From Rhizophagus irregularis (Eukaryota; Glomeromycota; Glomeromycetes; Glomerales; Glomeraceae): DNA of 64,000 bases. Positions 1 through 1,733 of the stretch are shown here, piece after piece; within the stretch, counting starts at the first letter, position 1; each line of letters opens with the position of its first letter. The notes under the pieces were generated by a model. That model made no database searches. It was not told where the DNA came from and was given only the letters and a program-made list of their open reading frames with translations. Where the stretch lies: assembly GCF_026210795.1 (NCBI RefSeq), contig NC_089432.1:3410001-3474000 (forward strand), written 5' to 3'. A program made the translations under genes and the position numbers.

Positions 1-1733
1 TTAATTCTATTATTACTTTAACATATAATTTAAACTAACTAAATTCTTTATTTAAAAATTATTTATAGAGTGTAAGTTATTTATTTTTTATTACATACAA
101 TTTATATAATTTAAGCTAACTAAATTCTTTATTTAAAAAATTATTTTGTAATTTTTTTAGTTAGAAGTAGCATCGAAGAATTTGAGGAAAATGACTCTGA
201 AGAATTCAAAGGAAATGACTCTGAAGAATTTGAAGAAAGTAGTACTAATGAATCTAAAGGTATATTAAACAAACTGAAATATTAAATTTTTGTTTGTAAA
301 TAATTTGAATACTATACCTTATATGATGCACAAATATAATTTAAACTATCTTATATTATACAAAAATTATTTTAAATAATTTAGCTCGTAAGTTGATAAG
401 ATAACTTATAATTGAACAATAATGGGATTACTTACTATTTAATTATATTTCATGTAACTAAATAATTTATTTAATGCATAATAATACTATAGTCAGTAAG
501 TTATCAGTTATTGTTCTTTACTTTACTTATTTTATAAAATATTCAAATAACTAAATTTTTTGTTTTAATAATTAATTATATTACAGATGGTAAGTTACAA
601 CATTATATTTATTTGACAAATATTTTATATATTTTAACTAATTATATTCTTAATTTAAATAATTAGATTGTTAGTAATATATTTAATTTACAGTAAATAT
701 TTTGTACTATGTTTACATCCAATTAATTAATAATTAATAATACTACATAAAGGGTGTAAGTTATATTTATATTTCTATTATTAATATAATTTAAACTAAC
801 TAAATAATTTTATTTAAAAATTATTTTGTAATTTTTATTTAGTTGGTAAGTTATAAATTATTTATTTAATTCTATTATATTACTCATTATATAATATTTA
901 CATATAATTTAAACTAACTAAATTCTTTATTTAAAAATTATTTAATAATATAGGGAGTAAGTTATTTATTTAATTCTATTATAACTTATTTATATAATAT
1001 TTATATATAATTTAAACTAACTAAATTTTTTATTTAAATAGATTGTAAGTTATAAGTTATTTAGTTCTATTATTACCTATTTATATAATATTTACATATA
1101 ATTTAAACTAACTAAATTCCTTATTTAAAAATTATTTTGTAATTTTATTTAGTTGGTAAGTTTAAGTTATTTATTTATTTATTTCTATTATTACTTATTT
1201 ACATAACATTTATAATAATTTAAACTACTTAATTCTTCATTCAATAATTTTATTTAGTTGGTAAGTTATAAGTTATCTATTTAATTTTATTATTACTTAT
1301 TTATGTAATATTTTACATATACTGTAATTTAAATTAACTAAATTTTCTATTTAATAGATTGTAAGTTACAAGTTATTTAATTCTATTATTACTTATTTAT
1401 ATAACTAAATTCTTTATTTAAATAGATTGTAAGTTATAGGTTATATTTATTTTACTTATTTATATAATATTTACATATAATTTAAACTAACTAAATTCTT
1501 TTTTAAAAAAAATTATTTAATAAATATAGGGAGTAAGTTATTAATTAATTCTATTATTACTTATTTATACTAACTAAATTCTTTATTGGAAAATTATTTA
1601 ATAATATAGGGGGTAAGTTGTTTATTTAATTCTATTATTACTTATTTATATAATATTTACATATAATTTAAACTAATTAATGCTTTATGATATCTAAAAA
1701 ATTATTGTATAATTTATGAATTTTTGTATGAAG
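1..1733 (+). repeat. Tandem array of intron-like units separated by 3-nt exons
   Basis: Seen directly: about 16 AT-rich units of 65-125 bp. Each starts with a GTAAGT-type donor, usually carries a CTAACTAAAT branch-point-like box, and ends in AG. Donors begin at 72, 260, 388, 496, 590, 670 (GTTAGT), 756, 846, 957, 1045, 1156, 1261, 1361, 1429, 1533 and 1613. The acceptor AG lies exactly 3 nt before the next donor at 15 junctions: 69-71, 385-387, 493-495, 587-589, 667-669, 753-755, 843-845, 954-956, 1042-1044, 1153-1155, 1258-1260, 1358-1360, 1426-1428, 1530-1532 and 1610-1612. The triplets vary (AGT, CTC, TCA, ATG, ATT, GGT, TTG, GGA, GGG). Units after 756 are clear copies of one another; units from 260 to 755 have quite different bodies but keep the same splice-signal spacing. 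Inference: consecutive introns with 3-nt microexons, or a minisatellite that grew from an intron. The array runs off the left edge of the window. Confidence 0.8.
161..259 (+). CDS. 99-nt internal exon for an acidic Glu/Ser-rich segment (partial gene)
   Basis: The exon is bounded by a TTTTTTTAG acceptor ending at 160 and a GTATAT donor at 260. It is exactly 33 codons long. In the phase that leaves TT to finish the preceding codon it reads a strongly acidic, internally repetitive peptide (RSSIEEFEENDSEEFKGNDS and on), with two near-identical NDSEEF blocks. It lies inside the array of intron-like units with 3-nt exons. Its length is a multiple of three, so including or skipping it, or any 3-nt exon, would not shift the frame. 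The family is unknown. The gene extends left of the window. A second frame is also open, so the choice of frame rests on composition and phase. Confidence 0.55.

Follow-up and report, generated by a model that had tools for sequence, protein, structure and literature searches.

In a large kinase gene family of the Rhizophagus irregularis genome, a row of one-codon exons, likely spliced in order, appears to encode a phase-1 linker between an acidic N-terminus and the kinase domain. We assign this reading of the sequence a probability of about 0.9. The array at the start of the window (the whole stretch of 64,000 nucleotides that was analysed) belongs to this family, and the copy found there appears truncated.

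The row at the start of the window

Across positions 1-1733 of the window, an AG stands exactly 3 nt 5′ of all 15 GT[A/T]AGT donors (at 72, 388, 496, 590, 670, 756, 846, 957, 1045, 1156, 1261, 1361, 1429, 1533 and 1613); AG accounts for 3.3% of the dinucleotides in this segment. Our recount agrees with the initial annotation, which had reported a gap of exactly 3 nt between AG and donor at 15 of 15 junctions, and its unit lengths of 65-125 hold for the 14 introns between 260 and 1609 (65-125 nt). It had also called the bodies at 260-755 unrelated to the later ones. The bodies of introns 7-14 are mutually related (z of 2.0 to 11.0), and introns 1-5 (260-752) show little or no likeness to them (z of -0.3 to 4.9, with the maximum at intron 3), so the description is close to correct without holding in the strict sense. 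Three features had been missed: one junction precedes a real 99-nt exon (161-259), the row extends upstream of the window, within the locus that we call L009, and it recurs genome-wide. Rfam, at its gathering thresholds, gave no match in the window.

Table 1. Predicted exons and introns of the row at the start of the window (window positions).
Feature	Position	Strand	Basis
3-nt exon AGT, last of the upstream row	69..71	+	AG at 67-68, donor GTAAGTTA at 72
Intron, GTAAGT...TTTTTTTAG	72..160	+	sequence
Internal coding exon, 99 nt, phase 1 at both ends, acidic RSSIEEFEENDSEEFKGNDSEEFEESSTNESK	161..259	+	sequence and family match
Intron 1, donor GTATAT	260..384	+	splice sites
3-nt exon CTC	385..387	+	splice sites; usual first triplet in paralogues
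Intron 2	388..492	+	splice sites
3-nt exon TCA	493..495	+	splice sites
Intron 3	496..586	+	splice sites
3-nt exon ATG	587..589	+	splice sites
Intron 4	590..666	+	splice sites
3-nt exon ATT, donor GTTAGT	667..669	+	splice sites
Intron 5	670..752	+	splice sites
3-nt exon GGT	753..755	+	splice sites
Intron 6	756..842	+	splice sites
3-nt exon TTG	843..845	+	splice sites
Intron 7, mutually homologous bodies from here on	846..953	+	body z-scores
3-nt exon GGA	954..956	+	splice sites
Intron 8	957..1041	+	splice sites
3-nt exon ATT	1042..1044	+	splice sites
Intron 9	1045..1152	+	splice sites
3-nt exon TTG	1153..1155	+	splice sites
Intron 10	1156..1257	+	splice sites
3-nt exon TTG	1258..1260	+	splice sites
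Intron 11	1261..1357	+	splice sites
3-nt exon ATT	1358..1360	+	splice sites
Intron 12	1361..1425	+	splice sites
3-nt exon ATT	1426..1428	+	splice sites
Intron 13	1429..1529	+	splice sites
3-nt exon GGA	1530..1532	+	splice sites
Intron 14	1533..1609	+	splice sites
3-nt exon GGG, the row's last	1610..1612	+	splice sites
Last intron-like unit, start; truncation point	1613..1733	+	sequence compared with 20 paralogues

The L009 gene starts with the family's usual ATG exon, at locus position 7122, and an acidic exon at 7223-7342. Its first row, upstream of the window copy, has lost the AG at two junctions and the GT at one donor. After this first row come a second acidic exon (window 161-259), which resembles the one at L009:7223-7342, and a second row (window 385-1612). 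Read in phase 1, the second row gives A-L-N-D-W-F-G-N-F-V-D-Y-W-R and no stop, the last eight residues having been computed and the others read by hand. In a comparison with 20 paralogues, the 3′ end of the family (CTT-TTG, a 1-nt exon and the kinase exon) was not seen after this row. Because the kinase end is absent and splice sites have been lost upstream, the window copy is probably a truncated, decayed member of the kinase family. Further upstream, L009 3500-6400 holds an apparent inverted pair of arrays of a GCATGTTAC-type repeat with an A/T-rich centre, as judged by eye.

The rest of the window contains other repeats and open reading frames. On the minus strand, an ORF with a Crinkler N-terminal domain (17120-17533; PF20147, E 1.9e-12) is followed on the same strand by an ORF with a GGPGVGKS motif and no Pfam match at E 0.001 (15440-16873). 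The same strand carries a bromodomain ORF (20552-21634; PF00439, E 9e-17) and, in two similar copies separated by about 5.1 kb, a Sel1-repeat ORF adjoining a kinase-like fragment (44051-45378 and 49185-50512; Pfam was run on the first copy only). A MULE transposase ORF lies on the plus strand (34849-36714; PF10551, E 1.6e-20); it also has a FAR1 match, which falls below the cut-off. Two minisatellites of 22-23-bp units, whose consensus units are reverse complements, flank about 4 kb (25104-25496 and 29343-29735), and minisatellites with a CTCCCATCACTCC-type unit occur about 27 kb apart at 26694-27203 and 53958-54310.

Exon length and stop avoidance across the family

We searched the genome (146,748,485 bases in 32 contigs) with window 740-1660 and obtained 207 DNA matches on many contigs. 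One word made of a donor and part of an intron body has 1,349 copies in the genome, with TAG exactly 3 nt upstream of 1,272 of them; the backwards control of this word returned 0 in both searches, with and without TAG and three bases. When the gap was left free to vary from 0 to 12, 110 places were found. Among the 100 listed, 94 show a gap of 3; of the remaining six, three have a nested AG at gap 3. An AG at -3 precedes 606 of 640 GTAAGT donors at 12 loci (34 donors lack it, and 6 of the 640 have an AG at gap 0); the corresponding counts are 292 of 302 at eight additional loci and 58 of 61 at another five. The decoded loci number 20 (L009-L020 and L029-L036), and five extra loci (L022, L023, L025, L026 and L028) entered the strict tests only. 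From a set of eight exon-1 loci, L021, L024 and L027 were left out, as they lie inside L009, L018 and L014; L001-L008 were excluded as separate loci.

The triplets are surrounded by the signals GTAAGT, CTAAC and TAG, which are of intron type. In 17 of 25 loci the row starts with CTC-TCA-ATG-ATT-GGT or a close variant, and this conserved start reads mostly A-L-x-[D/N]-W in phase 1, where the second codon is mostly CTC or CTT, both leucine. Before the kinase, the row ends at most loci in CTT-TTG or CTT-TCA/CTG and then a single nucleotide. The middle of the row varies between genes and is rich in R, D, W, F, I, G, L, K and N. The pattern of the conserved CTT exon occurs at 41 places (control 0). 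Over the 20 loci, 871 of 944 triplets have T or G at their second position. An apparently foreign insertion lies within one intron of L019 (about 6770-7030), and the row is otherwise intact by eye. Exceptions to the 3-nt rule include 2-nt exons in a short chain of L020 (6659-7032) and a 6-nt gap at C13:290617; these departures may be decay or real exceptions.

We decoded exon lengths freely by dynamic programming, in which donor, branch point and acceptor carried hand-written weights and every exon length between 0 and 30 was weighted equally. The decoder placed 974 exons at the 20 loci, of which 944 are exactly 3 nt; 19 of the loci each carry 29-80 decoded 3-nt exons. Set between TAG-type acceptors and GTAAGT-type donors, these 944 of 974 have the form of microexons, that is, internal exons of at most 30 nt with canonical sites. 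Among the remaining 30, nine are 1 nt long, including seven that are the terminal 1-nt exon. No chain was decoded on either strand of window 2001-64000 or in shuffled array loci, and the wrong strand of the 20 array loci gave two chains, whose 30 exons include 24 of 6 nt and not one of 3 nt. Because these controls lack 3-nt chains, chance does not account for the 3-nt spacing. Where neighbouring sites are no more than 150 nt apart, the 754 introns that they bound have a median length of 100 nt (range 63-146, the upper end being set by the 150-nt filter), and their lengths modulo 3 are distributed 266/234/254. Intron lengths thus have no bias towards multiples of three, and therefore the constraint sits on the exon.

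If the triplets are read in phase 1, the last base of one triplet and the first two bases of the next must not spell a stop. None of the 884 adjacent pairs in the decoded chains of the 20 loci does so, and the count is zero at each locus (939 of the 944 triplets lie in runs of two or more and were used; 5 lone triplets were omitted). By comparison, controls that preserve composition and local neighbourhood contain 35 stops in 884 pairs when neighbours are reversed, 31 in 829 at lag 2 and 29 in 774 at lag 3, while within-segment shuffles have a mean of 31.9 stops and a minimum of 17 in 5,000. Because paralogy makes the pairs non-independent, we also counted distinct pairs, which have 0 stops in 296 compared with 15 in 296 at lag 2. 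In the strict set, confined to GT[A/G]AGT donors, stops are absent from 803 adjacent pairs and from 283 distinct pairs, for which shuffling gives 14 (minimum 4 in 5,000). The loci L029-L036, fetched after the idea had formed, contain 0 in 249 compared with 8.4 expected, and 0.0002 of shuffles are as low; the five partial loci contain 0 in 52 compared with 1.9 expected, too few to inform alone.

The upstream acidic exon also ends in phase 1, the stop-avoiding one. Read in phase 2, the 884 pairs contain 134 stops; of the 939 triplets themselves, one is a stop in phase 0, a phase that gives no cross-junction test. To our knowledge, the only force that acts on forward neighbours alone is the translation of ordered, joined triplets, and the observed stop avoidance is the trace expected from selection on single-codon exons that are translated in order. 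Stops at lag 2 are at chance level, and therefore full inclusion, rather than skipping, is suggested as the selected state. The initial annotation had offered real 3-nt microexons as one possibility, and the absence of phase-1 stops (0 of 884), in genomic order only, lends it strong support at the level of selection.

From the acidic exon to the kinase

In intact paralogues, an acidic exon that ends in phase 1 is followed by dozens of 3-nt exons, then by a single 1-nt exon and finally by the kinase exon, which is in phase 2. In the eight genes inspected (L009, L011, L015, L017-L020 and L029), the acidic exon ends in AAAG directly before GT, and the joined frames of L017 and L019 place this end in phase 1. 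An SP7-like effector, our first guess for the host gene, was rejected; the gene is a kinase.

In L017 (C24, minus strand), an ATG exon of 22 nt and an acidic exon of 123 nt, with the same AAAG end in phase 1, precede 45 exons of 3 nt, one of 1 nt, the phase-2 kinase exon and the rest of the kinase up to the stop; the boundaries of the larger exons are our own reading. The joined model has an uninterrupted frame of 461 aa, and its protein matches protein-kinase profiles (PF07714, E 8.5e-42; PF00069, E 4.9e-38). Its N-terminus, MAHSNNK..., is unlike a signal peptide by eye. At the TTG site of most paralogues, L017 has AG directly on GT, and this zero-length site was omitted from the model. When the 1-nt exon is removed, the frame is lost; when the 45 triplets are removed and the 1-nt exon is kept, the model remains in frame with 416 aa. 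The joined L019 model has 464 aa from 43 triplets (40 decoded and three from the strict scan beyond the insertion) and the 1-nt exon.

We scanned the sequence before the kinase at 22 loci (L010-L020 and L029-L039), where the kinase junction was found at all except L010 and L033. At all 20 loci where the junction was found, an acceptor and a donor enclose exactly one nucleotide, and this predicted single-nucleotide exon is the one that L017 needs for its frame. Its base is A in 17 loci, C in L015, T in L017 and G in L018, and L013, L030, L032 and L034 each have an extra, weaker candidate site. A word containing the 1-nt-exon element has 129 copies in the genome with at most one mismatch (control 8), and the exact element lies within 900 bp upstream of 58 of the 91 kinase exons listed with the public protein P0003. 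Of the 86 exact elements, 28 are not beside a listed kinase exon; as that list is a lower bound, they may belong to unlisted kinases or to other genes.

Gene finders have already used some of these splice sites, and their models disagree among themselves. The L017 model, used as a query, retrieved 93 public proteins, many of which begin near the kinase exon, and the full triplet row is absent from the public models of these genes. In P0084, the public model of the L019 gene, an 18-aa linker is an exact ordered subset of the 43 triplets in phase 1, a fit reached by 0 of 20,000 shuffled peptides. The only protein found by a search with the L019 model was P0084, and none carried the complete linker. 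In P0003, the linker's end (ELGILGIEL before SKFGKSKN) corresponds, when TTG is skipped, to the final L037 triplets in phase 0. Peptides resembling triplets in phase 0 are present in P0003, P0021, P0028, P0031 and P0032, of which only P0003 was compared with DNA, and P0019 and P0036 from R. diaphanus have similar-looking leaders, as judged by protein sequence alone. Because the automated models examined cut, skip or misphase the rows, many kinase genes in this model mycorrhizal fungus would, if RNA confirms the rows, likely be mis-annotated.

Competing explanations and known systems

Several alternative explanations account for parts of these observations. The array could be a non-coding minisatellite inside one large intron, with the splice-like words and the 3-nt gap being parts of the repeat unit, and the later units are indeed homologous tandem copies (Tandem Repeats Finder rows over 784-1650, and body z-scores). 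We consider it very unlikely, however, as the first five introns have an equal gap despite little likeness (z of -0.3 to 4.9), phase-1 stops are avoided in forward adjacent order only (0 of 884 compared with 35 of 884 reversed), and the 1-nt exon repairs the frame into the kinase. Alternatively, the units could be stepping stones for removing a long intron by recursive splicing, without retention of the triplets in the mRNA. The units are whole introns that stop a few bases short of the following donor, one L017 site has AG directly on GT and would be a zero-length stepping site, and L017 stays in frame (416 aa) without its triplets if the 1-nt exon is kept. Discarded triplets would nevertheless show stops between neighbours, and such a mechanism has no need for a gap of 3 over any other from 0 to 12, even though the gap was 3 in 94 of the 100 places listed (of 110). 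The stop avoidance between neighbours leaves this proposal, which the initial annotation had also raised, unsupported and highly improbable.

The triplets might instead be exons in phase 0, with a 5-nt exon, AGTAA, preceding the kinase. The end of the P0003 linker matches the last L037 triplets in this phase, with TTG skipped, and only 1 stop occurs among 939 triplets, but the acidic exon ends in phase 1, and the GT needed after a 5-nt exon is absent at L014, L018 and L034, whereas a 1-nt exon fits 20 of 20 loci. Moreover, it is in phase 1 that stops are avoided across junctions, and a phase-0 reading offers no cause for this. We regard this explanation as extremely improbable. Less easily dismissed, though still unlikely, is that the triplets form a pool of exons for combinatorial skipping, with many linker variants per gene. 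Skipping any triplet preserves the frame, and P0084 uses an ordered 18 of 43 triplets. Pairs that would be joined by a single skip, however, carry stops at chance level (31 of 829, compared with a shuffle mean of about 32 of 884), and therefore skipping would be rare or tolerated waste.

We thus favour a row of translated, single-codon exons in phase 1, for which we propose the following mechanism. The spliceosome would include essentially every triplet. Because an AG and a GT that are 3 nt apart presumably cannot both be occupied, introns would go one at a time, neighbouring introns being removed one after another, and each splice would add one codon and expose the next donor. At the end of the row, the 1-nt exon would shift the reading from phase 1 to phase 2, in which the kinase exon starts. 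Rows would lengthen or shorten by tandem duplication or loss of an intron-plus-codon unit, leaving the frame intact. The homology of the later units and the repeated blocks of triplets (for example in L015) suggest that growth occurs by tandem duplication, as the initial annotation had surmised for an intron plus three bases. The linker most likely serves as a putative fast-changing, gene-specific spacer or docking segment for the kinase.

Genes with many tiny exons have been described elsewhere. In the excerpts of PMC10526429, schistosome micro-exon genes (MEGs) form a variable multigene family with many short, mostly frame-neutral exons; exon sizes are given as 3-81 bp in the abstract and 6-81 bp in the text, mostly 15 bp, intron lengths run from 100 bp to nearly 5,000 bp, and secretion is reported for the proteins. 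The R. irregularis genes likewise have many short, mostly frame-neutral exons in a variable multigene family. Unlike those of MEGs, their row exons are nearly all 3 nt, their introns have a median of about 100 nt and their host gene is a kinase; at 3 nt, the exons fall outside the schistosome type when it is defined by exon sizes of 6-81 bp and intron sizes of 100-5,000 bp. SP7-like effectors of R. irregularis are characterized, in the excerpts of PMC11333574, by a signal peptide and by protein repeats, the first of which is preceded by a single conserved intron. They share with the present genes the form of a repeat-built, multi-member fungal gene family and differ from them in that neither a kinase nor rows of tiny exons are mentioned for SP7 in those excerpts.

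Excerpts of other papers report an isolated 3-nt exon in Drosophila homothorax (PMC7392893) and 1-nt exons in Arabidopsis APC11 and Fusarium CYP621A (PMC4674806, PMC12940212). These exons demonstrate that spliceosomes can include 3 or 1 nt, as we propose for the rows. They are, however, single exons in single genes or ortholog sets, whereas the R. irregularis exons lie in long consecutive rows, and the 1-nt exon there, unlike the isolated ones, ends the row at every one of the 20 loci that have a kinase junction.

In recursive splicing at ratchet points, acceptor and donor adjoin, and the recursive sites leave nothing in the mRNA. The R. irregularis rows resemble it in their adjoining acceptors and donors and in their probably stepwise removal, but they differ in having 3 nt between AG and GT that behave as coding. 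The AG directly on GT that marks a recursive site was found for 6 of 640 donors, compared with a gap of 3 in 606 of 640. In stwintrons, an intron interrupts the splice signal of another, and introner elements are near-identical introns across unrelated genes. The rows resemble both in placing introns next to introns and in multiplying them. Unlike in stwintrons, no unit interrupts the splice site of another in the loci read, and in the window every unit carries a donor and an acceptor of its own and is separated from the next by 3 nt. At the loci read, the copies are in tandem in one gene family, which would set them apart from introners.

Isolated 3-nt and 1-nt exons and genes with many short exons have thus been published, and long rows of single codons would, pending RNA, be an extreme variant of them. 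Among the literature matches listed, we found no description of rows of tens of single-codon exons. RNA-seq of R. irregularis DAOM197198 has already been generated (PMC10234402), and tiny exons are not mentioned in the passages of that paper on exon, intron and kinase (12 of 32).

If RNA confirms the rows, they would represent gene splitting taken to one intron per codon over dozens of codons, and they would be an extreme test of how the spliceosome handles exons too small for exon definition. They would also provide a natural system for watching ordered splicing, and a satellite-like repeat made coding, in which the unit of change is an intron plus a codon. We find it somewhat more probable than not that in dozens of kinase genes a protein segment is built from an intron-plus-codon satellite, one codon per splicing event and from 5′ to 3′, as a codon ratchet. 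Scaled from the 20 loci, the genome would then contain some 4,000 single-codon exons. If such a codon ratchet operates, the segment would evolve by adding, losing and exchanging intron-codon units, and the dynamics of a satellite would write protein sequence directly.
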